A stretch of 64,000 nucleotides of DNA from Albula goreensis. Taxonomy: Eukaryota; Chordata; Actinopteri; Albuliformes; Albulidae. The stretch is from assembly GCA_022829145.1 (NCBI GenBank), contig CM040761.1, positions 21,568,245 to 21,632,244 on the forward strand, in the 5' to 3' direction. Positions 4,129 through 43,657 of the stretch are shown piece by piece. The notes under the pieces are model-generated. The model was not told the origin of the DNA, searched no databases, and worked only from the letters and a program-made list of their open reading frames with translations. The stretch's first letter is position 1, and each line of letters starts with the position of its first letter. Position numbers and translations under genes: made by a program.

Positions 4129-4377
4129 CCATGAAGTAGGCCACAATCTTGCACATGGCAGCTCCGAAGATGAAGTCTTCCAGCAGGTTGGGGATGAGGG
4201 TGAAGGGCATGCAGAAAACAGCCATCATCAGGTCGCTGACCGCCAGGGACAGGAGGAATGAGTTGGTAACCGTCCGCATGCGCTTGTTTGCCATCAGCAC
4301 CACGATGATCAGGAGGTTACCAAACACACTGAGCAGGAAGATCAGGGAGTACAGCAAGATCCTCACTGAATCCATCT
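4129..4377 (-). CDS. cckar: cckar-like coding exon 2 (TM1-TM2 and start of TM3)
   Basis: This 249-nt exon runs from a cacag acceptor, immediately preceded by the GA/CT microsatellite, to a gtaagg donor. It carries TM1, the first intracellular loop, TM2, the first extracellular loop and the conserved Cys at the top of TM3. The junction residues (K|E at the 5' end, YFMG at the 3' end) match the human CCKAR exon structure, which supports both splice sites. No stop or frameshift is present. Confidence 0.9.
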
Positions 4378-7300
4378 CTGTGAGAGAGAGAGAGAGAGAG
4401 AGAGAGATCTACAGTTAAATCACACAAATTTAACTGGCACTTTGATGATAAACAGAAACACTGGCCAGGATCCAGACAAACAAACTTAGTCTCTTTAATG
4501 GCATAATCCAATTCAAACATTTACAATTTCAAAGGAGATATTTGCATCTCTCCAAAAAAAAATATAGCATACTCAAAGAAAATGATGTTGTAATGTAAAG
4601 CCTGTTTAGACGGAATTGCATTACGGCTTTAAAGAGACTGAGTGCATTTGATTGAATCTAACCTGTAATCTTTGCTGATTCAGCACACAAGGGAAAGAGG
4701 CAGAGAGATAAAGAGTGAGAGAGATAGTTATTATTTAATGCTCTTATAGACAATAATGCCTGCCATTCTGCATGGACTTTTTTTCTCTGCGCATTCCTGG
4801 CGATGACCAGTTGAACGTGTTGTGCTAATGTGAGGTTCAATATTTATGTGATCTAGATATGCCTCAGTTACAATATTAATGGCAGAGAAAATATATTAAC
4901 CCAGGTTGACATTTATATCAATCTTTAAGAATAAACATTGCATTCTCTCTGTACCCGCAGAACAGCTGAACGACTGTTTTGTTGCGTAAACCTTACTGTT
5001 TCCCTCTCTGAGAGAAAAACCTGGCTGGTTCTAAAGGGTGGAAACGCACACAGTACATTGCAAAGTTGCTGACCAGAAGAGCGTGAGTTAATTTGCCAGG
5101 ACTCTCCATTATAAATCAATGGAGAACATATACCATCTCCGGTGCCCTTTTCCATTGTTTTGATAAGCATTGATAGCCTGTGGATGGGTCAGGACTCAGT
5201 CGTAGGAGGCGGACACACCAGCTGCTTACAAATGCACTCTCAAATGACTGGAGGTGAAGCCACAGACTCAGTAAACAGGGGCGGGAGTAGGACCTAGCAT
5301 GCAGTGCTTCAGGCCATCCTACCGGGGTATTTGTGATCTGTTTTTAAAATAGATTTGTTAGCTCAAACCCACAGCAGCCACTCTTGTGTCTATGGGAATA
5401 CTTCACTCTGTCATTGTGGACAAGGACAAAGTTTCGAGTAATCAAAATCTACATCGCTGGAATGAGCTGCAATTAGTATGGACTCGACACCACCATGCAG
5501 GCCTGCGCTCGATTACATTTAAAGTTTTATATATTCTACAACAGAAGTTAGCTGTCTGTTAAACTACCATGACCGACTTACAGCGGCATCATTGTGCAGT
5601 CATTGGCCACTAACACACTCCCCTTGGCAAAGACCTCATTTGATTACAGTGAGAGAAATTGTGAGGAGGTTAGATACTATATTTAATCAACATTATTTAA
5701 CATATCAATTAACATATCAATCTGTACACACACCCAGGTCAACTCCCAAGACTAACATCAGGATAACAGCGAGGAATTTTCAGCTGGCAAAAATGAAAAC
5801 GCTTTTATAAACCTATGCGGCAGCGTATTTTCTGAAATACACAGAGCATGAAATCCACAACACCAAGGGCGTTCTTTGCCAGGATCGTACAATTAATTGG
5901 AAAGCAACTGCCCTTTTCGAGGGGATACCACGTTTCCACATCGCAGACCAATTCATTTAACTGGGTCATTGCCTGTCACCAAAAGAGAAATCTAAATTTG
6001 ACTCCATTTGTGTGCAATTAAAAAATGGTGAGATGATAAATCGTGTCTCAAGCTGAGTGAAGCTCTTCTTAAAACGATTCTCGATATTTAATTAGGGCTC
6101 ACCGTCACCCACGTCGCCATGGCCGGAGATCCTCAAATGTGTTTTCAATCCGCCGGGAACGCATGCTGTGTTCTGCTCAGACAAATGAGAGCCAGTGCAA
6201 CAGTGCAGCAATGCATTGTGGGTTTTAGGGAACTATTTGTCCTTTGATGGTAGGGGCATCACTGAAAATGTTCAATATCAAAGGGTATCTTGACTTTTTC
6301 TGAAATGATAAAAAAATGAAATATTTCTGAAGCATATACTTTTAGCTTTGATGAAACTCCCCATAACCTGATTCCATTGACAAGATTTGTGATTGGAGCA
6401 AATGACCTACAGAACCAATCACATGCTGGCCTAGTATTTTCACCAGCAAAACAGTTTTGAGATTTGTTCCTCCTAACTGTTTTTTGCTATTTTGTCTTCA
6501 CAAAACACTGAGATTTTTTCTCTGTAGTGAATGCAATTACTATAGAATATGTTGGATTCAGTGGGTATTTGATCTAAACTTTGACTCACAGTTAATTACA
6601 AAACAATCCTTTCTTTATTGTCCATACACATCTGGATTCAATCAGCATTTCAATTGTAAATAAATGCAGTTAAATAAATCTTTTTTTCCCTGGTAAGTAA
6701 ATTGAAATTGATTTCTGAACTTTCTGAACTTTCTGAACATGTGTTGATTGAACACAGGCCACTGTTTGACAACTTACTCTTGGTGATTGATTCAATACTC
6801 AACAAGCAGTTTGTTAGGGAAAAAAAGACTTTTTAACGTGAAAATATCGGCTGAATCCGGCCCATTTGTCATATTAGCTTGGCGGTAAAGAGACACCATT
6901 TTGATGTGCTGCCAACAAAATGCTAAAATTTTAATGGTCATCTTCAATTAAATTAAATGTAACTTTTTAATCCCCTCCACAAAAATGAAGAAATTGAGTC
7001 AACACAAGTACCTCCACATACAGTAGAAGGCAAACACCAAAATTAGCCTTCTGCAAACATCACACCCACACACAATACAAGCTCAAAAGTTACACACCTG
7101 GGCTATGCGTGCAAACAGAGTTTACAGTATGCTAATTAAAAACATAAATATGAACACCGGGAAAAAAGTGACAAGGTACATAAAATTAGGGATTGTGTGC
7201 TTCAGTCATGTGACAGTCTTTCACACCCTTTTTTGTTCTGGCTAGGAGGTTATTTCAAATGACATTTTTCATCTCATGCAAAACAAGATGTTGCGTGCTC

Positions 7301-23073: not shown

Positions 23074-24605
23074 CTACAACATGTGAGACATGAGAAGCAT
23101 TAGGCTCAGATAACACAGCCTGGTCGGAACGCTCTCCACACGGTGGATTCCGGAGCTGAGTGACAGCTTTCCTCTGCGATCAGCCTCTGAACACAGAGAG
23201 GAAAGCTCAGTGAGTATTCCTTCACAAACCTGTTATGTGTTATCACAACATTTTCTGAAGATGCACTAAATCACAATTATCAACTGGCATTGATAACTTG
23301 ATAGTGCAAAAGGCAAAGATACAGAGGTCCAAATGTTGAGGTTTCTTGGCCTTTACGTTTTCAGATTGGAGATTTTGCAGGCGATAAATAGAGTGTACAT
23401 GCTCCAAGGATGTCTACAGTAAATCTGATATATGAGATGTAGTAAGTCTGAGATGGGAGTCTTTCTCCAGTCATTGATTCTGATCTCTTAATGAACTGAC
23501 TGCCATGGAACCTTCCCTACATAGGATTTAACCATATAGGGAAGCCCATGGATTACTTTGTCCAAAAGTTTAAACCTGGATTTTATATTTTTGTTTTGGA
23601 AATGGTCTATATTTTTAACATATCAAAGACAGGTCAATCACCACCCCCCCGTTGGTGAAATGTTTTCCCCACAGTGATTTGATGCCATCAGACACAACAC
23701 TTACTCTGCACTGAGAGATGCATGAAGTTTCCTCTGCTGCTCTCACCACTGGGTTTACATTCTCCGTTGCACTGAAAAGTCCCGTTATCTCTCCCAGTCA
23801 GGTTTTTTATCTCCATGGCGACCACTCTGTTTCGGACAGCATTGTTTTGCTTGTCCTTTGTCTCTGAGATTTCGATGAAATATTTGCTGGATTTGTTGAA
23901 CTCGACACACGTGCTCTCTGACTGTAATTTACACCAGTATGCATTTACGCGTCCACACTTTTGTTGGTTGTACGTGACAGTGCAGCTGACTTTCAGCGTA
24001 TCTCCCTCTTGTTTTTTCAGGGCGAGTCTTGGAAATTTCACTGTCACCACAACACCATCATCATGATCTGTGCCACAAGGAGAAAGAAAGACATTCTTCA
24101 TCAGTACCTAAACATGAAAAATCCTTTTTTCTTGAATCTCCCCCTCTCACCTTCAGATGGTAAATGAATGGGTCAAGCCCACATCTTTCGGTTATCAGTA
24201 AGCTTATGGTGTGTTGCATGGAAACACATTTTAATACATCTAATAAAATTTATATTTTTACAGATAGAGTGCTGAATTCTACAGATAAAAAGATTTTTAT
24301 TGTAACAAAATTCACAAAAGAATTGATGAAAAACATCACTTTCATTTTTGATTTTGATACACATCGCACATTTTTGTGTGGCCCAACTACTTTATTTCAA
24401 TGTGAAAATCTGGCCCAGAACATCATTCTGTTTTACAGGCTCCTTTCCTAAGAGAAAAAGGCAGAGCGCATACAGTACCTGTCCCGGATGAAGGCAGGAC
24501 ACTGAAGCAGAAAAGCAGTGCTGTCAGAAACCATTCTGGTCCTGAACATGTGGACGTCCTGACCCGGTTCTGACTCAGGAGAGGGCACCTAAGAAAGACC
24601 CCCAT
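23074..24605 (-). CDS. cd160: CD160-like single Ig-V domain receptor, three coding exons, 200 aa
   Basis: Exons: 24479-24605, 23705-24067 and 23074-23186. Both junctions are GT-AG and keep the frame (first junction makes an Asp, second a Lys). Exon 1 gives a signal peptide with core WFLTALLFCFSVLP. Exon 2 is one V-type domain (residues about 50-163): B-strand Cys71, YWC Cys88, and the F-strand signature DNGTFQC with Cys142. Extra cysteines are C80, C96 and C146. Exon 3 adds 37 residues ending in a hydrophobic stretch (LCYLSLMLLMSHML), which looks like a GPI-anchor signal or a very short membrane segment; no cytoplasmic tail follows. Human CD160 is a GPI-anchored single V-domain lymphocyte receptor of 181 aa that binds HVEM and MHC-I; the 16-residue gap between Cys71 and Cys88 and the region after the F-strand Cys align with it without gaps as I recall it. 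The neighbours pdzk1 (+) and gpr89 (-) match human order and strand. Alternatives are a CD300/pIgR-like protein. The start Met could also be further upstream. Orthology is inference. Confidence 0.65.
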
Positions 24606-25794
24606 TTCAGCAGCCTGTCCCTGCAGATACAGACTGCAGTGGAGCTGGTAACACAATCATACAGTCTGTTCCCACAGGCCGAAATATCAATGACAAAAAA
24701 TCACCCACACCCTTGCTGCGAGAGCACATGCATGTGACAGTGTGTGGGTGTGTGTGTGTCTGTGTGTGCGTGTGTATGTGTGGGGGGCCAGCTATCTGGC
24801 TATATGCCTCACTCTGCTCTAAAAATACTGAGCTGAAAAAGTCAATAGGAAGTGTGATGGAACGGAAATTGAGAGGAAGGAAATGTTAAGAGGGCTCTTC
24901 TCTCCTGTTTTGTGTGTGGGTTTTAAATCTTTAGAGTCAAGTAAAAGCAACCAGAAGTTATGACTCTTATCAAGATCTGCATCCTGAAGATGGAGTGACT
25001 TGCACTTCCACTTGCACACAGGTAGACGGTTATGTGGCTGCACAGTTACTTAAAACCCACAATTGAACTTTGCTCTGATACAGATATTGCTCAATTGTGG
25101 ATTTTCAAATGAACGATGCATTAGTTATTTCGCAAAATGTGATCCTTTTATTATTGTGCCCTGAGCTGGGACCTTCATAATTGAGCCCATTGAGATATAA
25201 GACCCTCTGCACTTCCATCAGGCTGCATGCAGATTGTTGATTATCTAATCAGATGGAATTTGGTAAGCTGCAGTAACTCAAGATGGCTGGTTGAGCCACC
25301 TGCATCTCTACTTCATTTCTCCCCCACTGAAACAGTACAAGAATATCCAAACACAGTTTTGGGATAGCCCCTAATGCGTATTTAATCAATGATAATCCTG
25401 TATTTGAGCTGCTTGGGATGAAATAATATCGCCATGTCAGACAGAACTCATTTTTACTGCCTTAGACTTTGAGGAATGATGCAGTAAAACTGGGGAAAAA
25501 AAGTTTATAACTTTGTCTTCCACCGTTACTATCTGCGTCCATCAAATTGAAGAAAAGTATGTTGATGTGATGGCCTGGTAGGGGAATAATATATATCTAG
25601 CAATTTTACACATCATAAAAGTAAGCAAAGTGCACAAAATATGTATGGAAGTTTATGGAGTTTGGTTTAGTCCCCATCGCTTTTTAATGGCCCTCTTTTA
25701 ACTGAATGTACCAGTTTCTCCCCTTTGCTTCTGTCATTGTCTTTCTTACTATTTGGGCAATCCCAGTAATCCCATTCATTACCCAGCTCTGAAA

Positions 25795-25824
25795 CCCCAC
25801 CCCACCCCCACCCCCACCCCCACC
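25795..25824. repeat. (CCCCAC)n simple repeat
   Basis: About five units of 5-6 bp, CACCC/CACCCC. A short low-complexity run with no gene nearby. Confidence 0.85.
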
Positions 25825-26973
25825 ACGAAGAAAGCTATTGTCACCTTTGCTTTTCCGTGATGTCACACGAGTGGGAGCTGGTTAAATATCTCAACCTCGG
25901 AGCCAACCTTTGGTCTATATGAGAGGGCCAGATAACACCTGCACATATGCAGGAGTAGGCTTTCTTTGGGCTGCGACTCAGGGGTGACAGGTGAGTGTTT
26001 CTCTTGAGCCCTTTGCAGGACATAGTGATGTTAATGATCAGAAGTATGGATGAAACTTGTAATGAATGTACAATGAAAGAGTATGTTGCTTCCTGGAAAA
26101 CAGCCCTGAGAACATTAAACTCATACAGCTGTCATTATTGATAAGATGATCAATGATGTTCAGTTTCTCTGAGGACTGCAAATGTAAATTAGCTCCTATA
26201 CTATCCAATACATCAGATTTCATGTTTTGGAGTTAATGTGACAAATGGTTGGTGACAAATAAATGAAATTTTGTGAATTTTTATTTTATGAGAGTGTTAT
26301 TACTCTCATAGTATTATAGTTATTACTACATGTTTTGTAGTATGGATAAACTTTATTAAGATTTGGTCATTTTTATTTTTTTCACACATTTTATATGGGG
26401 ATATCTGTTTTTGAAAATGTTGATGATATTTGGTATTTCGCATAGATTCAATAGGTTAGTATTTGATCCAGATCCTCGCTAATGTTGCCCACATGTCATT
26501 ATAGAAAACAAGGTTGGGAAAGAGTGGTAATGGGGAGAGGGTGGGATGCCAGAGATGCAAAGCTTGATGGGAGATGAGGTACGTGCGCTTTTATGCTTGT
26601 AAGGAGACCTGAATTGATTGAAGGGGTTTGTTTGATTGCATGATTCTCCTGAACTTTGTTTCAACAAACTCTATTTAAAACATATGCAGGAGATATTGCT
26701 GGTTGGAGAACTACTCAAACCGTGCTGGTAAAGACAGAAAGACAACATTTTAGTGTGCATTATCAGACAAATGGTCAAAGATTTAACATCTCCAAATGAA
26801 TTTTAAAAGTATTTTTTTTTTTTTACTTATTTGTGCATTAAAGTTTTAAAGAGGGTATTGTTGGTTGGATCTAGGTGTAAATCTTAATCTGAGGATCTGT
26901 GTATTTGTTTTCATGGCAGCGTATCCCCGCCTGTATTGGTAAACTTCATTATGGAAACTTTTTACCGCAAGCA

Positions 26974-27173
26974 CACAATGTGGCATTGACAGATTCAGCG
27001 ACGCATTACCTGCCATCAAAAGCAACCTTTGGAATTTTTCATAAGCAGATCGAGTGGGCGACGTTGGGTGTGAGCGCTTCAATAAAAATGAAAAACCATT
27101 GCCCTCGCCTCAGTAAAGCGTGGACTTTTATCCTTCAAACAGCTATAATGTGATTAAGATCATGTTTATCAGG
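26974..27173 (+). repeat. Duplicated non-coding module, copy A
   Basis: About 200 bp that closely resembles 29186-29372 in the same orientation. Shared blocks include cttcaataaaaat, cattgc.ctc.cctcagt.aag, and taatgtgattaagatca. By eye the two are roughly three-quarters identical with small indels. It has no long open frame shared between copies, no terminal repeats and no Pol III boxes. Confidence 0.7.
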
Positions 27174-29185
27174 GAGTAGTTAGAACATACGCTCTCTGTG
27201 TTCATTTTTTTGATGTCAGATGGACAACTGATGGGCGTCTTGAGATGGGGAGTCTGTATACGTTTGAGTTCTGATGTTGTTCATTGTGTTTTCATCTGAA
27301 TCTTTAGTACTACCATGTATGTCTCATTATATTAACCCGAATACGACTTGTGATCCATGTTGAAAACAGAATCATTCTCATATCATACACTAAATGATTG
27401 GGAAGAATTTATTATTATGGACATTCTTACTTTTTGTTTGTCTATTCGAGGGATGGTGTGAAAGTGATGATTATAATTATTGTTGTTTTTGCATTTCAGT
27501 TCATATTGGAATGACTATGCTGTTTCCAAGCCTTTTCAGCTGCTAATTATTGACTAGTTAAATCTGATGAAAGGTCGAAAACATTTATAGGGTCAATTAC
27601 AAAATACATATCTATATATCGCAAGTTATTTGAAAGATATGAATGACTGAACGTACTATAGAGATAAGATAAAAGCACACAGATGGGACATGCCACTAGT
27701 TTGACGGAGCTGAGGTGTTAGGTCAATGCAATTTTATAGATATACTGAAAGGATGTTGATTAACCCCTCCTGAGACTAATTAGCCTGTCCAAAACACTGA
27801 TCAGAATAAGGTAGCTGCACTTTAACTTTTACAATGATGCCCTGTTTTCAGCATGCAACTATATGGATCTCACCATATTGAATGGAATACTTACATGGAA
27901 TACTTGTTTAAAGGCTTGTTGAACACAACCACAAGACATTTATACTGTGACAAGTGGACAAAGTCATTGTGTTTGCCCTTTCTGTTGAGATACTTATGGC
28001 GAATCTCATTGCATGAAAAAGTGTATCTTATTTGCTTTGTTTGGCTTTATTGAAACATGAGCAGTACCACAGAGTTCAGGCCCATTTGTGAAGTTAACAA
28101 AAGACAAACTGACATGATCTGAAACAAAAGAAAAAGAGGAGGCAGTAGACAGAAGTAAAGTTAAGTAAAAGTTAAAAGTTTGCAGAAAGTGGTTATGAAA
28201 TAGCTACATTGGTGAATGGACTCACTGTGGTGGTTTATCAAAACAGGTCTTATAACACAAGAGGTCACAGTTTCAATTTCCTGGAGGGTTTTCACTGTTT
28301 GACACTTCAAGAAAGTACTTAACGTGAGCAGCTTTTGAAAAAACATTCAGTTGTGTATGAATGGGCTGAGTAAAGCCGTGTGAGTCAGTTTGGATTACCT
28401 CGTTTTGTAAATACCTGAAAATATAAACGAAAAGCTGTACAGCCTGGGCCAGGGCTTCATTTGAGATGGATGCTGTCAGAACAGGACCCAAGACCTCCCA
28501 GACCGGATCTGGGACCTATTTGTGTGGCTACAGCACCTCATTGTGAAGCTGTCGTTGTGATCTATAAATTAAGCACCACACTGGGCCCTGTGGTTACACT
28601 GTAAATATACAGGAAGTGGAAAACCAGTAAATGGACACACCAGTGTTAAGTTGCTCCATTGGAGGTTTTGCAAACACACACAGGATCTGCACACATTATG
28701 ACATCACATTTGATACACTACAAGGAGAATATGGCAGCTGTCTTCCACATGAAAGTCAATTGAATCATTCCATGGAAGCTAGAACCATTGTCTTGGGTGT
28801 TGTTCCGCACATTCCCGTACACACTTGATAAGGTTCAGATCCCAGAACTGAGACGTCTATGACATGGATAATATTGATGTTAGGTTCCCAAACAAATGGA
28901 CGAGCACTCATGATCTGTTGATGGTGGAAGTGGAACCCTTCTCTGTAGAACAGAAGTGCGTTAATACGGGGTGCAGATTATGAGTCAGCTCCATGACACA
29001 GTGACCGACATCATGAAGTACTGGTGTAACTGTATGAGTAGACCTATTAGTGGATTATCCTTTTTTAATGCACCTGCAAAGAGATGCACATATTACGTCT
29101 GTGAATGTGTATCCACGTTCATGTTAGAGAAATCCTTTCAGTGGTGACATTGTTTACGGCCACAAGCTGCACAGTCAACAGTGTA

Positions 29186-29372
29186 CACAGTGTGGTATTG
29201 ACCAGCTTTGCAATGCATTATCAGTTATCAAAACCAACCTTCGGAATCTTCTATACTATGCAATGTTGGGTGTCAGCACTTCAATAAAAATTAAAAGTCA
29301 TTGCTCTCACCTCAGTGAAGTATGGACTCTTATCCTGTTTCCAGCTGTAATGTGATTAAGATCAAATTTATC
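29186..29372 (+). repeat. Duplicated non-coding module, copy B
   Basis: This is the second copy of the module at 26974-27173, about 2.2 kb downstream and 350 bp upstream of the first coding exon of pdzk1. The position is compatible with a duplicated regulatory element or with two copies of an unnamed old repeat; the sequence alone does not decide. Confidence 0.7.
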
Positions 29373-29725
29373 TGAGAGAGCAGTGGGTTCAAGTTTCTCA
29401 CGATTTTACGCAATCGAATATATTTTTTTTTTACAAAGTTCTGTGATTCTGTTATTTTAATTATTTATTTCAGGGACTGCTGCTGAGTTTTTGGTTTCTT
29501 AAATACTTTCAGGTAATTTAATTGGCTGAGTGCACACTGCTGCATTCTCCTGTCGGGGGTTCAGTGATGGGTGGTATAACTGAGAAGGCTCAATTGCTAC
29601 TTCCAAATTTAGACTGAAGTGGGAATGTAATTGTTTTGTAAAAAAAAAAGAGAGAGAGAGAGAGAGAAGAGGCAGAAAAATAAAGTGAAAATCAAACATG
29701 TGGCTTTCCCACTGCTGTGACAGAG

Positions 29726-32700
29726 ATGGCCTCGTACACGCCCCGAGTGACCAACCTGACCAAGAGGGATGGCCAGAGCTTCGGCTTCATGCTGAGGGCC
29801 GAGCTGGGCGAAGACGGCCACCTGATCCGAAGCCTGGACAAGGGAGGCCTGGCCGAGCTGGCCGGACTCCGGGACGCTGACCGGATCCTGAGAGTCAACA
29901 ACATCTTCGTGGATAATCTGAACCATGTACAGGTAATCTGAACTGCAGTCTGCAGGCCCACCTGTGTACACTCAGTCAAATGCACTTGTCAGGTGCACAT
30001 TTATGAAGACCACCGTTTCCATTGTGGCTCTTAACTAAGAGCCTGATTAACTACTATTTCTGTTCTGGAATTCATGCTGCCATTCTCTGAGAATGATCTT
30101 TGCTGATGTGCATCTATAGCACAATTAAGAAAATTTTGGAAACATTGACAACAGTTAATAATAACAATGGTAGGACCACCTACAGTCTTTTATTTTATTT
30201 TATTTTACTGACTTTTATTTTGACACATTATCCCCTGTAAGGATAGATTGACTACCAGCCAGCATCTCCAGTTTGAAACTATCACACACTGTATCCCACA
30301 TATCAGACATACTCTCCAAACCTGGAAAGTAAATAAGGAGAAAGATCATAAATGAAATCTTAAGAGAGATGAGAGTAAAGGTTGTACCCTCTGTGGTGTC
30401 TGTTTGGCCAGGTGGTGAAGATGGTGAAGGAAAGTGGGTCATCTGTCACTCTGCACATCCTGGACCAGACCTCCTACAAACGGGCCAAGGCCAGCGGTGT
30501 GGACCTGTCCGACCCCCAGCCCCGCCCCACCATGAATGGAATGGCTGGCACAGGACCCAAACCCAAACTCTGCTTCCTGGTGAAATCAAAAGCCGGCTTC
30601 GAGTTTACTCTTAAGTCTACAGAAGGTGAGGTGCTTCACGACTTTCCTTGCCTTTATTATCCGTTATCAGCTGAAAGGCTAAATTCATCCTTGGTCAGCA
30701 CTTTTGGTCTAAAACTCTTTATGATTAAGGAAACTGTGGAGTTACAATTCCATCAGTCTTACTGATAAAGTAACCTTCATGAGCCCTCCAAATCAATTAC
30801 AGAGGTTTTAAAATGAGAGGGTAAATGTAATGAACTCTACTAATGAAATGGCAAATTAGCTGTGTCTGGTACATCAACAGTGTGATTAGTCCATGGTGAG
30901 TGCACAGAGCCTAATGTCTGTCCTTGCTCTGGTTTTCTGTTTGTCCTCTTGGCCTCAGGTGAGAAAGGGGTGTTCATATCAGATGTAACTACCTCTGGAG
31001 TAGCAGATAAGGCTGGAGTCAAGGCTCAAGATCGCCTCCTGGAGGTCAACGGTGAAAATGTTGGGAAAGCCACCCACGAACAGATTGTACAGAAGGTCAA
31101 TAGCTATTATTCGTCCTCAAGTTCACACGCCTCACGTCTTACATGCAGCGTTATTTTTAACAAAGAAACAATGAAAATACACATTTTCCTCTTGGCATAC
31201 TGCTCAACCGATTACACAGATTGCCAGGAAAAAAGCTGAGTAAACCTTCAAATATTCTTTATAGGGCTTACCTAATTTTATACTCTGATTTTCTTATATA
31301 ATTCGAGCCAGGCACCACAAATAACTTTCTAGGTATCCCCTTCAAGAGCTATAAATGTAAATAGCTGGAATTTTATTGAGGTCCAGTTATCTTGTAATAG
31401 ACTCATGAAAGTCCATGTGAAGACCCAGGCTCACATTATCATCTTGATAAGAGCTGCAGTTCTCACAGCCTTATCTGAATGCACAAGTTGAGACCTGGAA
31501 GGTTATAACTGGCATGATGTCTGTTGAACAATTCATAAAATACATTTGCCCAGGGAATATACTTATGGAAAAATCAAGATTCAATTTAGGGGGAGAAATT
31601 ATTTAACTCATAGGGGAATGACCCTTGACAAGAAGAACTAAATTGAGCTGGAAATGTAGAATAGCAATTGCTTATGCAGCATTCAGACATTGTGCTGAGC
31701 CCTCCATGTTAAAGTGTGAGCCGGAAGTGAAGCTAACGGATGTGCGTGGCTAACGGATGAGTGCGGTTTATGAGCAAATTTAGGTAGCTTATTGTTGGAT
31801 GGCAAAGGGAAAAGCAAGGCTCCTCAGTTTTTGTAGTTTGTTTATATTTTTTGTTCAATTCTGATGGTGTCTCACCTCCAGATCAAGGCTGCAGGAAGCC
31901 ACATCATGTTCTTGCTGGTGGACGAGGAGACTGACAGACACTACAAGAGCAAGAACCTGAAGCCGGGGGTGGGGCAAGCGACAACAAAGCACCTCCCACA
32001 CAAACCACGCATCGCGAATATGACCAAGGGCTCCGACGGCTATGGGTTCTACCTGAGAAGCGACCCAAAGCTGAAAGGTGTGTGTGAGTGTGCGTGTGTG
32101 TGAGTGTACACAGGGTGATCTCATGGTACATTCAGCAACAGAGAGTGAGACAGTAGATCAAGTGGGTTTCCCCTGTTCCATCCACTGCTCAACACAGTGC
32201 ATGACCCTCACTTACCATTACCCTGCTCAGTGCTAACATGGAACACACCGTTATTTTTTCCATTATTTGCAGACAATTAATGGTTTATTTGACTGTATCT
32301 GTAAAATTAGACATGTCTCTCTCCTCCCTGTCTCTCACACACTCTCATTTGAAATCAATTCAATTCAGTTCAGTTCAAGTCAATGTGCTTGGTATGACAT
32401 ATATCTTCTCATATATTCTCATACTAAAGCAAATAAACAATACATACGAACAATTAATACACTACTACTATGCACTACTACCACAATACTATGCACAGTC
32501 ACTCCTATATGATACAGATAGGGATAGAAAGATGTTGATAAAGAGATATCTCACAAAAGACATAAAATACTTTGTCAGCCAATAATAAGCTGATGGCCCT
32601 TTCTCTACAGGCCACTTTGTGAAGGATATTGACAGCAGGAGTCCAGCAGATAAGGTAGGCCTGAAGGACATGGACCGGATAGTAGCTGTGGATGGAGACG

Positions 32701-34779
32701 CAACGGACCGCTGGAACCATGACCAGCTGGTGGAGCGGATCAGGCGGTGCGGAGAGAGGTGCTCCATGCTGGTGGTGGACAGTGAAACGGACAGCATGTA
32801 CAAGCTGGTGAGCAAACGGGAATACTCAGGAGAACCTCGCTAAAGTCCATTACACCTGTTGGAAACACAACATGTACAGGAATAACAATGGTGTGAAATA
32901 CAGTCGTGCAAAAGCAATGAAGTACAGGTTACACGTTCTTCTGTGTTTAGCTGAAAAATAATAGCTGCTATCTAGAATTAGCATGCAGTTTGCTAAATGG
33001 AGGGATTAGTTTTATTGGTTGGGAATTAACAGTCCTTCCCAAGAAAAGTGCTTGCGCAACTTCGGATGTGTTTGTATATGAGCTATCTTGTCTTGGATGT
33101 GGCTCAAAACAATAGTCCACACCAGTCACATAGTAATACAGACAGATAGGCTTTAAGCCAAGATAATATGCTTTACATGGCTTTCACTTGACAGATGATG
33201 CAAGATGCTAAATGAATGTTGATACAGCTGGATATTTTCCTGATCTTCTCAAATTTAAGTGCCTTGGTTAAGGGAAGGTATCTCTCCACTCATGTTTGAG
33301 GAGTGCCAGTGTAGATAAAGCCTTTTGTTCTGGTTCAGCGCTAGAGGTCTCCAATCTTCCCTGAGAAGGTTTGGTATGGGAAAAAGGCTAGAACACACAC
33401 TTGCAACTAGAATGGGTCGTCTCTGCTAAGACTGTAATCCCCTTTAAGAAACCCATGAAAATATTGGAAACTGCATTTAAAACATTAAAATTATTGTATG
33501 CATGCCCTGATTGTTATGTTGAAAACAATCTGATACATGCTTTCTGCTCTGATCAATAGGGGGGGGCATCTCCCATCCTGTACTGGGAGGAAATGAAAGG
33601 AACTGGCCTGCAGCCAACTCCGCCTCCATCTCCCAAGGCAACGCCTAAACCAATCACAGTCCCCACCCCTGCCCATGAGAAGCCCTCCAGCGCTGATTAC
33701 AAACCCAAACTCTGCAAGCTGGAGAAGACCCCAAATGGATACGGTTTTCACCTTAATGGCATCCGTGGACAAATTGGCAACTACGCCATCAATGAGGTAG
33801 GGGCACAGATTTTCTATATAAAAACAAGATGGTCAACTCTTGCATTTCTTCCTCCCTCCATATTTCCTTATTTTAAGTAGGGGTATTAAAAACTCAGGAC
33901 AGGTAGTTTGCTGAAGGATGAAATATCGGTGACTGACCTGGGAATCAAACCTGCAACCTTGTGAGATGCAGGCAAAAATCTCAGAACGTATTAGAAAGCC
34001 ACTGGCAGGGTTAAAGTGAGGTGAAATAAATCTGAACTAAGGTCATTGTACTGCCTCCTGTAAGGTGGCGAAGGGCGGAGCCGCAGACAAGGCGGGGCTG
34101 GAGGATGGCGACATCGTGATTGAGGTGGAAGGAGTGAACGTAGAGGAGGTCCCGTACGAGGATGTGGTGGACATGATCAAGGCCAGTGGCGACCGCCTGG
34201 TTCTGCTGGTCACCGAGAAACGGGTCTACGACCACCTCAAAGCCCAGCAGATCGCCATCACCACCCTCCTGCTGGCCCGGAACAGCCTGGAGGAGCCTCG
34301 GACACCGACCCGGCTCCAGGAGGTGAAAGAGGAGGAGGAAGAAGAGGAGGAGAAGGGGAAGAAGGAGGAGAGAGCAGAGGAGAAGAAAGAAGAGGAGACC
34401 CCCCGCCCAGCTACACCTACTGTCCCAGCAGAGGTTCCAGAGAGGGTGAGAACCTCTGTTTCCGTTGCTTTCCAGTCACTGTCAGATCCATAACAATCAT
34501 TAACGTGTGTACATTTTCAGTGCGATCAGTTTTGCTCTTCCTCACGCAAGCTGCTTTATTGCAATCTAAAGGTTCCTCCCCAAAGTCCATCCAGATCCAT
34601 TGAATATACTTTCGAGTGACAGTAACAGACAGAGACAGACGGTCATCTCTGGTCAGCCGACTGGTCTACATTTCAAAATGACTTTGCTTCACTTAACATG
34701 TTTCTGTTCTCTCTCTTCACAGAAGTCTTCTGTTGCGTCAGCTTCATCAGAGGCCTCAAGTGAAGATGCACAGCTGTGA
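29726..34779 (+). CDS. pdzk1: pdzk1 / NHERF3 scaffold with four PDZ domains, complete (8 coding exons, 541 aa)
   Basis: Exons: 29726-29932, 30412-30625, 30959-31095, 31882-32077, 32611-32807, 33560-33796, 34065-34445, 34723-34779; phases agree throughout. The product scaffolds apical transporters, channels and SR-BI under the membrane of kidney, gut and liver cells. PDZ1 is about 7-88 (loop FGF at 19-21), PDZ2 121-201 (GFEF 131), PDZ3 228-308 (GYGF 239), PDZ4 367-449 (GYGF 377). PDZ2-4 each begin with the family's basic-proline lead-in (for example KPKLC). A Pro-rich linker (about 330-360) separates PDZ3 and PDZ4. The C-terminal part has a Glu/Lys-rich run (about 484-506), absent from human PDZK1 (519 aa) as I recall. 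The Ser/Glu end SSEDAQL parallels human NSEDTEM but lacks Thr at position -2. The start follows an acceptor two bases upstream, as in human, where the 5' UTR is split. The donor of exon 3 (AAG|gtcaat) is weak. Orthology is firm. Confidence 0.95.
33931..34005 (-). repeat. tRNA-derived SINE remnant in pdzk1 intron 6
   Basis: On the minus strand aaggttgcaggtttgattccc is a strong SINE B box, with an A-box-like stretch (tgccagtggc) about 50-60 bases upstream. The B-box context resembles the copy at 11648-11702. It ends about 60 bp before the acceptor of exon 7. Confidence 0.5.
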
Positions 34780-35454
34780 AGACGCAAGATTTTTTTTGCT
34801 AAATTTGTTTTCTCTTCTCAGTTCCCTGTACACTATTGCTAAACAGATATACGTATTGGAGGGGACAGTGTGGAAAAACTGAATGCAATGAACAATCAAA
34901 GCATGGTGATACAGCCAAGGAATACATTTAAAATTCTTCAATCTTCAATTTGCCTTCTCAAAGTGTCATCTGTGGCTTAGGTCTGCATTGCTTGCATTGG
35001 TGTTTCATTTAGTTTACTATTTAGCGTATATGAGCCTAGAACACTAAATACTCAGAAAAGCATGAAAAATGTAATTTGTCATTTTAAAGCTGCTCTTGAC
35101 TGTGAAATTAAATGTCTTTAATGTAGAATTAATGAAGATTTTAAAATGCGTGCGATGTAGTTTGCTCCAAACCCCTTTATGTTGTACTATATGAAGTGTT
35201 AAATCCATTGTTCACATGCCTGGTGTCTTTAAAACTGCTCTTCTTCTTTCATGGCTCATCGAGACCCTGTCACAGAAATGTCCTTCTCATAAACCTGCGT
35301 CGTCCTTTAAATAACACGCCACTAATGAGCAGCACTGGAACTCTCAGGGACACCATGAAACATGCTGTCTCCAAGTGTCATTCACAGATCGGCAATAATA
35401 AGAAGACAGCAATAATTTGATTGTATGTAAAAAAATAATAATGAATTGTGCCGA

Positions 35455-35512
35455 GTAAATCCTTCCTGATACGAGTGTCTGCTAAATGCCTTAATGAAAT
35501 AAAGTGCACTAT
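35455..35512 (+). repeat. Degenerate SINE/L2-type 3' tail
   Basis: The stretch cgagtgtctgctaaatgcc followed by taatgaaataaa resembles the shared 3' tail of fish V-SINE-like and L2-like elements, commonly of the form gagcgtctgctaaatg followed by AT-rich repeats. Only the tail is recognisable; the head is diverged. Confidence 0.55.
35498..35503 (+). terminator. pdzk1 poly(A) signal AATAAA
   Basis: This is the first canonical AATAAA on the plus strand downstream of the pdzk1 stop codon that I noted, followed by a GT-rich stretch (gagggtgcccttgttatctg) about 25 bases on. It lies inside the SINE/L2-type tail. Confidence 0.6.
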
Positions 35513-35889
35513 ATCTGAACATGAGGGTGCCCTTGTTATCTGAACTGTAGGATTAGGTGTGCCTTTTTTTATGCGTGTCTGAATGACTCAGCAAGTCTGC
35601 TGTATGGTGCTTCTGCCTCTGTATGGAACACTGCCTGTCAATAATCAGGATTACCCAGGATTATATTTTTGCAAAGTGTGAGAGCTGACGAAATATGAAA
35701 TACAGCAAAGGTAATACATTGAGCAATTTGTATTGACAGATGCCAGGACTTATTTTTCTACAGTTGGACGATACTTCACACCTTGGAAAAGTTAAACCCC
35801 TGAACTTGCAAAAACCAAAGTTCCTGAGGCATAGGCAAACAAGAGGCAAACTGTTTGTCTTGTGGCTGTGGCGTGAGTTCATGACCATG

Positions 35890-35903
35890 TCACCATCTAG
35901 TGG
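35890..35903 (-). promoter_or_regulatory. CTCF-like motif (12 of 14)
   Basis: On the minus strand CCACTAGATGGTGA matches the first 11 core positions exactly. It lies between the converging 3' ends of pdzk1 and gpr89. Confidence 0.3.
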
Positions 35904-37221
35904 TGGCGCATCATTACTGCAGGCCATCATTGAGGGAGCTGCTTACTCTCCACCAATCACATCCATTTCCCAACCCTTATAAAGATATTCTAATGTGCAG
36001 TTTGTGAAAGTAGGGCTAAAAATACACAATGAACTCCCACCAAAAACATTGTTTATTTAGTGACCCTCAAGAATATTTACAAAATCAGTGTCACTTGTGA
36101 TTTATTCCACTTCTTGTGCAGAACTCCAATTCAATCAAAGGCAAACAAAAGATCAAATAAGCAGCCATTGTTAAGATGATATAACTGACAAATCACTGAC
36201 AGCCACAGAACGACAAAACACTCAAGTTTCTGTATTCTCCTCCAGGCAGTAAATGACAGTAATTCTTGCATGTCCCTCTGCAGGCAGAATTCAGCGTAGA
36301 AAATGTATGCGTTCCATGTTGTAATGCATGACAGGAGTCTTAATACTGTGGTAAGATGAAGCAGGCCTGTGTCGGTGACAATCAGCTCAACCTGTGCACG
36401 GCTCGGAATACTCAGTACACCTCAACAAAGATTTAGATTAATGAGACAAGACTGATCACTCTGCTCTGTTTTCTGATTGCCAGAAGCACTATGTTCTGGG
36501 CTGAATAATGAACAGACAGCAGCCTTCCCATTACTGATTTACAATACAGGGTGTCCCATCTGCTGAGCCTCAAAAGGAAGGATTTATTACACCTCTTTTT
36601 TCAGTTTTGCTGAAGTTGTAGAAAAACACAAAGGCTAATTCTGAGGAAAGCTAACTTCATTAATAAAAGGTAACTATTGTTCTTTTGTGTGCTCCTCTCC
36701 ATACTTACAATAAATCAGCATAAACACAGGGATATATCTCAGCATCTTGAGAAAATAGAACTTACTGTGTCAGTAACTGCATCACCAGTCATAGTTTTAT
36801 CTCTCAATTTGATGCTTATGAGCCTGGTTAAAAATTAGTGCTTGCATCTGCAAAACTGAAGGGTATCGTTTTGAACTACACTCCTTTCTCAAGAATTACA
36901 GTGGAGCGGTAAAAGCTTGGCTGCAAGGCTAGAGCTGTTTGTAAACGTGTAACACTGTATCAGCCTGTGTAAACAAGAAGAGTGAGTAAAACACAAGAAA
37001 GAATCAATTAAAGGTTCCAAGATACTACTTAAATTACACGAATATTTCCATGAGAGCAGACTCATGACACATCCTGGATATCCATGGCTACAGCAATCTA
37101 AAACAGAGCTCAGTGGGGTCTGCAGGTGAATGTGGCACAATAGTAATGCAGTGAGAATACTTGTGCAGAAAGGATGTTTTCTTCCGGAAGTGTGCTGTCC
37201 TGGTGATTGCATGGTGAGGCA

Positions 37222-37323
37222 GAGATGCATGATTATATGGACTGTTATATGAGCAGAGATGCATAAATATATGGACTAATATATGAGTAGAGATGCATGA
37301 ATATGTGGACTGATATATGAGTA
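37222..37323 (+). repeat. 34-bp tandem repeat, three copies
   Basis: Three consecutive 34-bp units beginning gagatgcat and ending atatgagta/ca (37222-37255, 37256-37289, 37290-37323), differing at a few positions each. It lies downstream of gpr89. Confidence 0.85.
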
Positions 37324-37505
37324 GATGTAAACATGAGCAGCGAGGGACAGACAGTCATTCGGGCGACACATTCCAAGCACTATACTGCTCTTGGCTGCTG
37401 AGCTTTGCGGTGGTGGGTGCTGGTAAAACATGGAGTTCTGCTGTAGGGCTGACGGAGTCAGGTGTTCAGGTCTGACCTGAGGTCAAAGGTCATCTCTGGT
37501 CACCT

Positions 37506-37511
37506 TTTATT
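37506..37511 (-). terminator. Candidate gpr89 poly(A) signal
   Basis: AATAAA on the minus strand, about 320 bp beyond the stop codon. A CA microsatellite (about 37618-37701) and a 20-base A run (37543-37563) fall inside the predicted 3' UTR. Confidence 0.5.
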
Positions 37512-37617
37512 TACCTTTCATTTGTTCAATAATTCAGTCATTTAAAAAAAAAAAAAAAAAAAAGTGACTTCCATATTAAATCTTAATATGGTAAGTTAAG
37601 TAAGCAACATGTGCCAC

Positions 37618-37701
37618 ACACAAACACACACACACAGACGTGTACACACACATGCGCGCGCATGCACATGCATACGCACACACACACGCACGCACACACA
37701 C
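37618..37701. repeat. Imperfect (CA)n microsatellite
   Basis: CA-rich tract with GCGC interruptions in the predicted 3' UTR of gpr89. Confidence 0.85.
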
Positions 37702-37832
37702 TTATTTCAGCCAATGACAGCTCCTGATTCAGGAGCTGAGAGGTGTGGCACAGTCTTCATTAAACAGCACAAATACTCCCAAAATTAAAAAAAGACAGGA
37801 AAGAGGAAGAGATGAAAGTTCCTCCGGTGATG

Positions 37833-40800
37833 TCACAAGCTCATGTGCTTCTCGGGTGCCTGCTTGTGGGCCAGGTAGAGGAAGAGGATGCTGGACAGGG
37901 CGCTGACGAGGAAGATGACGTCGAACCAGCGGTGGTAGAAGTTGAACTGCAGCTCGCCCAGGACCTCGGTCACGATGGTACGGTACTCCAGGGGCATACT
38001 CATACGCATCAGGAGCACAGAGGACACAAAGTACATGCCCTAAGACAGAGACAGAGACAACACTGTTTGTGATATACACACCCACGCAAGGACAAGGGGG
38101 AAGTGACAGAGAGAGAAATAAAGGCAACAAGGGTTCTGATTTTTTTCTTCAGCTCTTCATTTTTTTTTTTCCCAACTCACCATGATCTGAGCCAGAACCA
38201 GAACTATGACATTAGAAGACTTGCTGCTTGAAATGGCGTAGAAGAACTGTGGGGGGCACAAGGAGAGAGCACCGCGAGATTAGCATAAACAACGCTTTAT
38301 AGCGTCCTGAAGATTAAGCTCCATATATCAGCAGCAGTAATCACCCACCTTGGTAAGCGTGATCAATAGACCTCTAATGGAAGTGACGATGATGATGCCG
38401 ACGAGAATGAAGGATATGTGCTGGGACCAGAATTTGACCTGGGTGAGGAGTGAGAACAGACTGTTACAGAACAGTGTGTACGCAATGAGACCAGAACACC
38501 CCCCCTCCCTCCCTCCCTCCCCTTTCTGCCCAAACAACCAATAGGCTCGACCCACATCGAACTGGATGCCCAGGTAATTGACGGTGATCTCAATTCCTCG
38601 CGTCACAGGGTCAGTCTTCCCCACACGGTCGAACACGATGTTGATGGTGGCCTGGAGGGACACACAGCGTGTGCAGATTATGCAGTGCAGGTATTATAGG
38701 TTGTGAAGGGATCTCTGTTTCACAGCTGTCACACCATTCATATTCACTGCAGTCCAACAAATGTTAGAGCTTACAAATGCAACACAACACATGCAATAGA
38801 GAACAGAGAATTCAGAGCAGAAACACTACTCTTCTATTACTGGCTCAATATATATTAGTTCTATTTACTATATACTAAGACTTCTTTGAAAATTAATGAT
38901 CACATATAAAAGCTGCTAACAAGAAATAAAATAAAGGATAAATGAATAGGTTGCCGTCTCCAGATTTAATGAAACACAGACACAACAAACATTCTCAGTG
39001 TGCTCTCAGACCAGATGCTATTTTTCTTCCATGTACTAAACAATGAAAAATTCACTGAATCATAAACAACTTTTTTTTTTTACTACCTACCATGGCTGAG
39101 CTACCATCTGAAGGAGATCGGGCTGGCATCAGTTCTTACCATGAATATTTTCCACACACAGTAGATGGAGAAGAAGTATCCTAAGAAGTTGAAGTATTTT
39201 CCCTGAAAGGTTTTCGAGTACTCTATCCTTTCCTGGCAAAAGACGAGAGAGGAGAATACTGTCTGAGCTATGGCATATAGCCACTCATGCAGCTGCTATC
39301 ACACAGAAAGGCATTCTGGGAAATCTGTACCCTGTCCATAATCACTAGGGCTGTAATTCAGTATCACTACAAATACTGGCAAAACTCACAAAGCAGTCAT
39401 GACAAATTTGAAAAAAAAAAAAAAAAACACTAAATAAATAAAAAATACATCAGTGTGAAGCTTGCTTTCTACTTGAAAGTGCAGCAGAAGTAAATCAAAC
39501 AAATCTTAAAAAATGAAGCCATACGGCAGAAAACATGAAAGGGAAAAGATTTACAGCTTCCAGGACAGGCACTTTAGAAAGGTACTCTTTTTTTGGGTGT
39601 AGGGTAGAAAACTCAAAAAATGGTTTTGAGGTGTGGGCCAGGTTGGCGCGGATGCCTACCTTGGTGGCCTGCAGGTCCACCGTCTCCAGGAAGAGCTGTC
39701 GGCTGAGCTCCTCCAGAGCGTCCACTTCCTGCTGGATGAGAGACAGATCTGCACATACGAAGTCAAGGACCTGCCTTGACCACACCCATTATTACCCCAC
39801 CACAGAAGCCTGATCCACAGCACACCTCCTTGGACGCGCTGTATTAATATGGGTACTGTCTCAGACGTCAGTCTCACAATTGCAGCTATGGAAACCACCC
39901 GCCCGCCGGATCTGCTTCAGGTGGTTGGCCTACAGCATCCTTACCACAGTCTGACTCTCCAATAGAGGACTGAAAAGTGAGCCACCTCCCCTTAGCTATT
40001 TACTGAAGCCTGTATTAAATGCTGCTTTTACCGTAGGCCTGCATTGATATTTCCCCTTCAGAAAAGCATTTACACCCAGCAGTATGTTTAATTTTGCACT
40101 GTTTCTTTCAGGATTGCTTTGTCCATAATAGGAAGATTTGCTAAATAATCCAGGGTGACTGTATGAGGGCTCACACTTGGATGTGTGGAAAGGATACTCT
40201 CGCTGCCTGGAGGAGAGGAAGTGACACTTTTGATCATCCCCCAGAATCCTGTCTGCTTGTTCTGGTCCTCCCCGCGCTGGTACATCTGCCTGCGGGTCAT
40301 GGCGATCCTGTAGAGCCAGGAGAAAAACGCCAGTGAACAGAGGAGAGCAAACGAAACCCTCAGGGCCTGACAGACAGCAGACCACATACAGCTTCCCCAG
40401 CTTAACGCAGGCAAATGAGCTCCAGTCCCGTCCCAATCTGCATCACATTGTGCAATTATTCCGGTCCAGTTTAGTTTAGATCACTAAGGCTTTATTGTCC
40501 CAACATTGGCCAATGGGATTCACAGCAGCATACCGACATTTATGAAAGAACAAACAATCTGCAACACACAATAGACTAATTTAACAATACGCAAACATAT
40601 AATGTCATAGGTATCAAATGTTTCACATTTATAGGGACCAAACAAAAAACACAGGACATATGGAGATGCAGAGCTGTAAAGCATCATGAGAGCTGAGCTC
40701 CATTACTATGACAACCACAATAATTAAGAACAGACGCATGAACAGACAAGTATGAGAGCACAAAACCGTTGAATGCTCAGAGACAAAAGCACAAATGCAA

Positions 40801-43657
40801 ACTGCAAATGTAGGTGTGAGATCCTCTTACTGCTCGTAGCTCACCATAAAAACCACAAAAAAGCCTTTATCAGTGGAAGATCATGAACTTTTTGAACTGC
40901 TAGGGGTGGGACAGGGGCATCCGGCCACCTGGCCCCTAGTACTCTGTAACATGTTCACCACAGAGTCAATACACACGTCCTTCACCTTAAACAGAGAGAG
41001 CGGCTGCACCAGCCATCCTGAATCTCCTTACAAGTAGGAATGGGCCATGATGTAACACGGTAATGCTCCTAAAAGCTGCTTACCAACCACCATTACACAA
41101 CAAAAGAAGAAGAACGCGTTACCACCAGGCGCCGGTAAAACATGTGTGGCGCTGTGCGATTGATGCTACTGTCCAAACAGGACAAACATTCAAAGCCAAA
41201 GACTACTACAGTCTTCCAAAAGATTCTTATGGAATCGCTCTGTTGTGTATGGTCATCTGCAATCTTTCCTTCAAATAATTTGCTGTTGGGTCTCTAGGCT
41301 ACTTTGCATTGGATTTGTTTTCAATAAGTCTTTCCTCCTCTGCCTGCAAAACATGAGTCAGTTTGGCTGTTAATCACACTTGCAAGTACAAAACCATGCC
41401 AAGTGTATTTGCCAATGTGTCTATGGTCCATTTTCATGGTTCATTTTAGTATCTTACACTCACAGGACAGGAGAGTTTCCAAACCAACTGTTTCCCCGTA
41501 AAGCCACTGTTTCAGGCTTATCGCACAGGTTTTGCTCAGTTCATGTACTTCCTTTCTCACCTCTTCTTCTTGCTGACGATCATGTCCATAGTCTGGAGCA
41601 GTCTCCGCTCCAGGGCCAGGATGTCACTGTCCGTCACATTCCTGCAAACAAGCATGATGTTATTTCTCCTGACACTACTGCCTTTGAACGTGCAGATATG
41701 AAAATATTCAAATTTCTAAACTAGCTACAATCTTAATAAACCATGAAGGAAGACTGGGACTGTACAATGTGGTTGGTGTCAGGGCTGGAGAACTGTGGGT
41801 AATGGCTCACCTCAGGAAGTAAGACATGTAGGTGTATGGACAGTTCACCGCACCAAAGCCAGACAACAGGGCCATAAGTGTGACCCCAATGACCCCAACT
41901 CGACTGATCAGCTGTTCAATCGACAAGATCCCTAAAGGGAGGAAGTAGGAACCAATGTAACAAGTTATCAAGGGTGACAGGACACAATGCATGGTTGGAC
42001 AAAAATATATGATGAGGAGAGACCGCAGGACAATGGCCAGCAAAACGCTGGAATATCATCAAATAAAAAAATGGCAACATTCTAACACTAATACAGCCAC
42101 TCCATCAAGAATAAAAGCCAAAAAACAGGCATTCCACTTATATGATTCATTCACTTTAGTTTCAAGGCTAAAGTATAAGATGATTCATCCTAAAATTGAA
42201 AACACAAAAACACAGTCTTAGGTTTAAGGCTGTGTGACAGTTTGGCTATAAAGCCTTAATATTACTCCAATATGTGTGCATGTGTTTTTGTGTACATATA
42301 CATAAGCACGCATGGTTTCTGAAAGTGTTCAATATAGCAGATGTTAGTTGCTAATACCATGTTTGGGACTGAGGATGGGAAAAGGGTCACCCAACTTCCA
42401 GAAGAAATACATGAAGGTGAACCATACCACACAGGCAAAGAGCAGCTTCTGCCTCTGTACTGTGGGAACATGAGAAAGCATGGGATCATAGAAACGAAGG
42501 ATTCCTTAATTTCACATTATAAAGGTCAAACAAATCTATACACACTGTGATAACTGCTACTTGTCTCACATATAAATATGATTATTACTACCACTGCAGC
42601 TGTATAGCTGTTGTAGAGATTACTGCTATGTGACAAAGTCACTGAATGGGAATCTTATTACGATGTTTAAAATATTGATTCAAATAAAGTTAATAAGTAT
42701 AAAACACTCACATAGTCGTATGTTGCTGACCACAAAGTAACCAATATAGAAAGGCACCACGAAGATAAGAACCAACAGAATAACATACAGGTTGAGTTTC
42801 CAGTGAAAGTACCTGGATCTGGGAACAGAGAACAAAACAGAAATACTATTGGAAACAACAGAGAAATGAAGCAGAGTGCAGTACCTATATAGTACGCAGC
42901 AACTATGGTTCAATCTCCATGTACCAAATACGGCCACAGGAAGCCAGTTTCATAAAAACTAAAACCAATGTGATTTCATGACAAAACATGCCCGGAAGCA
43001 TACTTACGTGCTACTCAAGGCACCCAGTATCTCAAAGATAATGAGCTCAAACATGGTGCAGGAGAATGCAAAGGTGACGGAGAAGACAACTTGCACAACA
43101 TACTGCCGAACCTGTTAAGATGGTGAGAATGGTTGTATCCATAAATTGCCAGCCCCAAGCCCCAGGGTTCCGTTCAAAGTAAAACAAATCACAGATCTGG
43201 CTGTCAGCCTTACTTATCACACAAAGTTACTGAATGGGGATCTTATCACGAAGTTTAAAACAGTAATGCAAGACGGCGACAGCTTCAACACACATCCATA
43301 ATACTTTCAGCAACTTGGATATAGAATGCGTATTACCTCGTAATCTTTGAATAACTGTCTCATGAAGAAAAGCCACCCAAACCCGAAAAACAGCACCTGC
43401 GAGGAAGTGACAAGCTGAATTACACAGTGAGATGGGGAAGACATTGTTATTAATCCATACATTTACCAAGACAATTTTAGCTTAACGTTAGTCTGTTTTA
43501 TAGGAGACCACACTCCGCTTGTCTCGTACAGTGTGTACCAATAGTACAAAACTGTGAATAGCACGAGTAAACAGCTAGCTTGCTATGAAGCTAACTATCC
43601 AGCTGTCGTTATTACCTGAGAGGTGAACATGATCACTGAATCTACGAGAAATGACAT
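37833..43657 (-). CDS. gpr89: gpr89 / Golgi pH regulator (GPHR), complete (14 coding exons, 455 aa)
   Basis: Exons from 5' to 3': 43616-43657, 43337-43396, 43008-43111, 42712-42818, 42358-42459, 41811-41931, 41561-41641, 40198-40307, 39660-39748, 39140-39232, 38556-38651, 38349-38438, 38181-38246, 37833-38039. All have GT-AG ends and phases agree. The total is 1368 nt, giving 455 aa, the same length as human GPHR. The multi-pass membrane protein is a voltage-dependent anion channel that supports Golgi acidification. Visible features are the N-terminal hydrophobic hairpins ([24 protein letters not shown]), the near-invariant block [20 protein letters not shown], a cytosolic loop with the coiled stretch [15 protein letters not shown], and the C-terminal block [14 protein letters not shown]. 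The C-terminus APEKHMSL differs from human only in the last few residues. It is compact (5.8 kb) and converges on pdzk1. The human genome has near-identical GPR89A/B copies; only one copy is seen here. Confidence 0.97.
40484..40580 (+). repeat. Possible non-LTR retroelement 3' fragment
   Basis: The run aggctttattgtccc, followed by a 'tgggattcacagcagcat' stretch, recalls a common fish repeat with the pattern tttattgtcccc..ggggaaattt..cagca, which I associate with LINE 3' ends. It lies in gpr89 intron 7. Family unknown. Confidence 0.3.
42633..42672 (+). repeat. 40-bp direct repeat, copy 1 (gpr89 intron 4)
   Basis: These 40 bases match 43221-43260 at 36 positions without gaps. It lies just inside intron 4, downstream of exon 4 on the coding strand. 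Confidence 0.8.
43221..43260 (+). repeat. 40-bp direct repeat, copy 2 (gpr89 intron 2)
   Basis: Second copy of the 40-mer at 42633-42672, same orientation, in intron 2. Neither copy shows Pol III boxes or terminal repeats. Confidence 0.8.

Follow-up and report, generated by a model that had tools for sequence, protein, structure and literature searches.

The 64,000-nucleotide stretch of Albula goreensis DNA analyzed here (GenBank contig CM040761.1, positions 21,568,245 to 21,632,244 of the forward strand; hereafter, the window) lies on the chromosome labeled C21 and contains a three-exon gene for a single immunoglobulin V domain, referred to as the Ig gene, next to pdzk1 and with gpr89 beyond it. 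We infer that this gene is the orthologue of CD160 and encodes a protein held by a glycosylphosphatidylinositol (GPI) anchor, and we give this reading a probability of about 0.58. Taken together, position and architecture favor CD160 over any other single explanation; the sequence is in keeping with it, although alone it would not carry the claim.

The Ig Gene and Its Predicted Product

The Ig gene spans positions 23074-24605 on the minus strand and was rebuilt from canonical splice sites as follows:

24605-24479, minus strand: exon 1 (coding part), with the ATG and a signal peptide whose hydrophobic core is FLTALLFCFSVLP; a phase-1 donor stands at its end.
24067-23705, minus strand: exon 2, a phase 1-1 exon with a single V-set domain (Pfam, splice sites, AlphaFold2).
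23186-23074, minus strand: exon 3 (coding part), with stem, LSSG, spacer, hydrophobic end and stop (splice sites and hydropathy).

The coding sequence has 603 nt for a precursor of 200 residues, and both introns are in phase 1. Exon 2 reached 41.5 bits against Pfam V-set (cut-off 26; E 1.6e-10), which rules out a chance frame, and AlphaFold2 modeled its V domain with a mean predicted local distance difference test (pLDDT) score of 85.1; the frame of exon 1 had no Pfam match, as a signal peptide would give. The reading of this DNA made beforehand from its letters (the sequence-only reading) had ascribed to the gene the architecture of CD160, namely a signal-peptide exon, one V exon and a short exon with a hydrophobic end, and both the gene model and the Pfam match bear this out.

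Regarding the V domain, cysteines occupy the B-F and C-C′ places, which suggests that the corresponding two disulfides are formed; one further cysteine lies in the BC loop and another four residues past the F-strand Cys. The C-C′ cysteine stretch, AYWCKLQSESTC, carries a YWC-type motif; C-C′ cysteines with a motif of this type are common to CD300/pIgR-like receptors, CD160 and BTLA.

As for the C-terminus, exon 3 encodes, in this order, a short stem, the small-residue site LSSG, a 10-residue spacer and a hydrophobic end of 14 residues, followed by the stop. The best 14-residue hydropathy window scored 1.78 in this tail and 1.99 in the tail of human CD160; both hydrophobic stretches fall below the length of a typical transmembrane helix. 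The layout is like that of a GPI signal, and the protein is probably anchored in this way. At the 3′ side, a consensus splice donor occurs at 23059-23073, 14 bases past the stop, with possible room for a 3′ untranslated intron, an alternative tail exon or further exons, and a polyadenylation-like signal is found at 22845. Human CD160 is described as having GPI and transmembrane isoforms produced by alternative splicing (PMC9676924).

Position beside pdzk1 and gpr89

The two neighbors that define the locus are as follows:

29726..34794, plus strand: pdzk1 (NHERF3), divergent neighbor of the Ig gene (PDB matches to PDZK1/NHE-RF3, Pfam PDZ, exon positions).
37836..43657, minus strand: gpr89, with its ATG at 43657 and its last exon from 38039 down (Pfam ABA_GPCR, exon positions, genome search).

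The first three PDZ domains of pdzk1 had PDZK1/NHE-RF3 as their best PDB match (E 5e-31). For gpr89, the last exon matched Pfam ABA_GPCR at 5.9e-15 and another exon reached 21.6 bits, slightly below the cut-off of 22.1; the search of the genome for this family reported a single place, the gpr89 of the window. The order and strands proposed from the letters, with the Ig gene and gpr89 on the minus strand and pdzk1 on the plus strand, hold in the window, and the strands of human CD160, PDZK1 and GPR89A are presumably the same. The order matches the printed human one, which runs RNF115, CD160, PDZK1, GPR89A, with POLR3C two genes from CD160 and the CD160-PDZK1-GPR89A block located at 1q21.1 (PMC5704537, PMC5518118). 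Finally, one of the three BCL9-family matches in the genome is on C21, at 17.0 Mb, which lends weak support to a wider kinship with 1q21.

Similarity to CD160

The human CD160 V domain (query letters verified for residues 1-118 of 133) was compared with the whole genome in a heuristic first look, which gave only three candidate places, all of them scored (E 0.97, 1.83 and 8.6). The Ig gene is the third of these and the only V-set one, covering query residues 8-104; the other two were set aside, one being a frame with a stop and the other an Ig domain behind apparent leucine-rich-repeat sequence, and a better CD160 candidate was not reported by this search. By shuffled alignment score the Ig gene ranked first of 44 against human CD160 in a panel of V and Ig domains of the genome (z 8.6, next 6.9), and it was first again in a panel of 19; several CD300-like places, some of them partial or with stops, were left out of these panels. 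In addition, the pattern [YF]xC-x12-GxF occurs in human CD160, in mouse CD160 and in the Ig gene, and in one of the 43 other panel rows; it corresponds to the stretch 110-128 of human CD160, which is an HVEM-binding fragment (PMC12714101).

Human CD160 (PDB 6ng9/6ng3) and the Ig gene share several traits: the locus beside PDZK1 and GPR89; a signal peptide, one V domain and a tail with the layout of a GPI signal; the B-F and C-C′ cysteines; and the stretch just described. The disulfides of the human protein are given as B-F (C44-C112) and C-C′ (C61-C68) in PMC12714101 and PMC6355189. The two differ in that identity is about 22-24%, the C-C′ loop is one residue longer in the Ig gene, and the latter has two extra cysteines, in the BC loop and past the F strand. 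The spacing between the B-strand Cys and the following Cys, which had been put forward as a CD160 trait, is indeed that of human CD160, with 16 residues between; it is not diagnostic, because the CD300-like V domains of chromosome C16 have the same spacing.

Evidence Pointing Away from CD160, and a Possible CD300/pIgR-like Alternative

Several findings weigh against CD160, beginning with the locus. The anchor-gene argument has support on the side of PDZK1 and GPR89; beyond the opposite end of the Ig gene, the first recognized gene is the following:

4010..4408, minus strand: first exon of a cholecystokinin-A-receptor-like gene (Pfam 7tm_1), which runs out of the window (into L023).

The best PDB match of this exon is the cholecystokinin receptor type A (E 6e-73), where human has RNF115, and POLR3C is on C20 in this genome and not on C21; the shared block is thus of three genes and ends at the Ig gene, and the synteny is one-sided. 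Similarity to CD160 itself is low, given that the genome search placed the Ig gene at E 8.6 with 22% identity only; against mouse CD160 it came third of 19, behind two CD300-like domains, and the free Cys adjoining the F-strand Cys in mammalian CD160 is absent.

Other families came closer in several comparisons. The shuffled z of the Ig gene was 12.3 with the domain 1 part of pIgR, 9.0 with BTLA and 8.8 with CD160; a PDB sequence search placed shark VNAR (E 1e-4) and pIgR above CD160 (0.039) and BTLA (0.41). Within the genome, its closest relatives are CD300/pIgR-like V domains of C16 (E 0.006), whose four-cysteine spacing, C-x8-C-x7-C-x7-C, is identical. In hhalign, the Ig gene matched the CD300-like set at 4.2e-9, the BTLA set at 1.9e-7 and the CD160 pair at 2.2e-6, and the CD160 pair had a better match in the CD300-like set (1.1e-8) than in the Ig gene (2.2e-6); these E-values depend on profile depth, which differs between the sets, and no ranking was based on them. 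Some initial letters appear as M in the tool's output for the alignment with the CD300-like set (A4). It should be noted that pIgR and CD300 may have lower rates of evolution than CD160 and BTLA.

These results are the substance of the most serious rival, according to which the Ig gene is a lone fish member of the CD300/pIgR-like (CMRF35-like) receptors, deprived of its transmembrane part and brought beside pdzk1 by accident, the likeness to the CD160 locus being a coincidence. We consider it unlikely, though worth close attention: the best in-genome relatives with their identical cysteine spacing, the top shuffled score with pIgR domain 1 and the best hhalign match all fit it, as does the dispersal of such domains over C3, C8, C12 and C16 among the 43 matches of a genome search. 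The traits shared with these domains are the cysteine spacing of the C16 rows, the YWC motif and the E-values of 0.006 and 0.0015. However, the same 43 matches include no other C21 place besides the Ig gene, and the gene model has a GPI-like end, with 14 hydrophobic residues instead of the full transmembrane segment of the CD300/pIgR-like type. At the F strand, the Ig gene has FQCN in place of the Y-x-C-G seen in 10 of the 15 aligned CD300-like rows, and its B-to-C spacing is longer than in 11 of those 15.

The trees bear on this alternative as well. A narrow tree of 23 rows was compared with a wide one of 30 rows, which includes antigen-receptor domains and a single V domain of apparent TIM type; of the 15 CD300-like rows this wide tree kept 10, and of the 21 further V or Ig domains it kept 11. 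In the narrow tree, the Ig gene, CD160 and BTLA are split from 16 CD300-like/pIgR rows with support of 97/95, the Ig gene sitting outside CD160 plus BTLA; the wide tree has the same split at 87/43, and the Ig gene stands beside BTLA at 87/56. Uniting the Ig gene with the C16 CD300-like rows gave approximately unbiased test values (p-AU) of 0.081 (four rows, narrow tree) and 0.048 (two rows, wide tree). To be set on the other side are the very long end branch of the Ig gene in the narrow tree, which drew a program warning on the meeting of long branches, and the nearest rows by path length, namely C16 CD300-like rows for the narrow tree and the VNAR part for the wide tree. A clade of the Ig gene with all CD300-like/pIgR rows, constrained in the wide tree only, was not rejected (p-AU 0.25), and a grouping with CD160 alone was neither rejected nor preferred (p-AU 0.385 and 0.392). 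Taken together, the trees lean away from the CD300/pIgR-like rival without excluding it.

As for structure, Z scores of the Ig folds lie within one unit of each other, and CD160 was absent among the 50 rows listed by either of two structure searches. A profile and predicted-structure comparison had been proposed as a way to decide the matter; the structural part does not separate the families, and the hhalign E-values, from profiles of unequal depth, are lowest for the CD300-like set. Neither tree nor structure comparison set the domain firmly with CD300/pIgR, the outcome named beforehand as fatal to CD160. In summary, the sequence-only reading is supported in part: position, gene order, the single V domain and the GPI-like tail agree with CD160, but the cysteine spacing is not a diagnostic trait, the synteny is one-sided, pairwise similarity is higher to domain 1 of pIgR, and a grouping with CD160 only is unsupported.

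VNAR is a rearranging antigen-receptor domain and shares with the Ig gene a BC-loop Cys and a Cys shortly past the F-strand Cys, in addition to being the top PDB match (E 1e-4); kinship with it was set aside, the likeness probably reflecting a common cysteine placement. On C16, between 30.65 and 31.78 Mb (L029-L041), the CD300/pIgR-like V exons form a cluster of two subtypes, paired about 3 kb apart, and the members of a pair may be two domains encoded by a single gene; an additional BC-loop cysteine marks one of the subtypes.

Relation to BTLA

Human BTLA (query checked against the PDB letters) found one place on C21, at 20663096 (E 1.4e-9), and three at C5:35.97 Mb (E 2.5e-9, 7.3e-6 and 0.0018). 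The first is the BTLA orthologue:

C21:20.66 Mb, minus strand: BTLA, with its V domain at L019:8085-8393 and a tyrosine-motif exon at L019:6978-7256.

The latter exon carries the motifs YAALNH and EYAAIRV, and such tyrosine motifs are a hallmark of BTLA. This gene is on the same chromosome as the Ig gene, 0.93 Mb away, and the Ig gene is therefore a different gene; the possibility that it is BTLA itself was rejected. BTLA, both human and in the genome copies at C21:20.66 Mb and C5:35.97 Mb, resembles the Ig gene in its Ig domain, C-C′ cysteines and WCK stretch, and its identity of 19-23% is among the highest in the structure list. In BTLA, a disulfide links an N-terminal Cys with that of the BC loop, and the cytoplasmic tail carries tyrosine motifs; the Ig gene model has neither, since it has no Cys before the B strand and ends in the GPI-like exon without the cytoplasmic tail of immunoreceptor tyrosine-based inhibitory and switch motifs (ITIM/ITSM).

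A further alternative is that the BTLA/CD160 group has a third member in the Ig gene, as close to BTLA as to CD160 and at no time CD160 proper, which came from the stem of the two receptors or from a BTLA copy moved within C21. A pairing of the Ig gene with BTLA alone, like the pairing with CD160, was neither supported nor rejected (p-AU 0.383, narrow tree). This alternative is quite improbable, considering that the position of the Ig gene is that of CD160, that the tyrosine-motif exon and the Cys before the B strand of BTLA are missing from the gene model, and that the C5 BTLA-like domain was reached with the Ig gene as query at E 3.64 only. Least probable is that the gene is decaying or not expressed and that its seeming tail results from the loss of a transmembrane exon: the good donor 14 bases past the stop would allow further exons, but three intact exons, canonical splice sites, an open coding sequence and a V-set score well above the cut-off speak against it.

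The proximity of the two genes invites a tentative, rather doubtful proposal, that CD160 and BTLA originated as neighbors on a single ancestral chromosome, prior to the split of ray-finned fish and tetrapods, and are both still on C21; in human, BTLA is on 3q13 and CD160 on 1q21.1. ATG3, a neighbor of human BTLA, had five family matches in the genome (C5:27.56, C1 and C4), with none on C21 or near the C5 BTLA-like exons. The latter, three V exons in a row at C5:35.966-35.974 Mb (L018, L021, L022), make a second cluster of BTLA type, which brings to mind a paper whose title speaks of "multiple BTLAs".

Possible Function and Implications

Assuming that the Ig gene is CD160, the 200-residue precursor would give one V domain with two conserved disulfides, held in the outer leaflet of the membrane by the GPI anchor. 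Having no cytoplasmic tail, the product could act like CD160, as a surface receptor of lymphocytes or natural killer (NK) cells, and would signal through membrane partners. The F-G face and the C-C′ loop may contact the partner, for example an HVEM-like tumor necrosis factor (TNF) receptor or a molecule like class I of the major histocompatibility complex (MHC-I). In human CD160 and BTLA, edge strands pair with a strand of the first cysteine-rich domain (CRD1) of HVEM (PMC8558838), and D67 in the C-C′ loop of CD160 is needed for HVEM binding (PMC12714101). In the alignment, D67 is not kept in the Ig gene.

CD160 has been listed among the NK genes with poor conservation in vertebrates (PMC5340972), and a description of a fish CD160 gene was not found in the literature searched, which did not extend to subscription papers and genome-annotation entries. 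Domain structure and synteny were used likewise for other receptors in work on the CD28 family of jawed vertebrates (PMC11599192), and a search of its main text found no mention of CD160. If the locus argument is true, fish have CD160, the HVEM-BTLA-CD160 switch becomes testable in them and its GPI-anchored arm can be assigned an age; the linkage of BTLA and CD160 in turn suggests a specific way in which the two receptors could have separated. If the ancestral linkage is also true, a GPI-anchored partner in the HVEM system would date back to the origin of bony vertebrates, and the poor conservation of CD160 implied by ortholog tables would not hold for this NK gene.

Other Observations

A Pfam scan of 19 high-scoring frames outside the named genes, picked from 75, gave no match. 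Elsewhere in the genome, the V domain at C6:18.128 Mb (L067) resembles members of the TIM (HAVCR) family.

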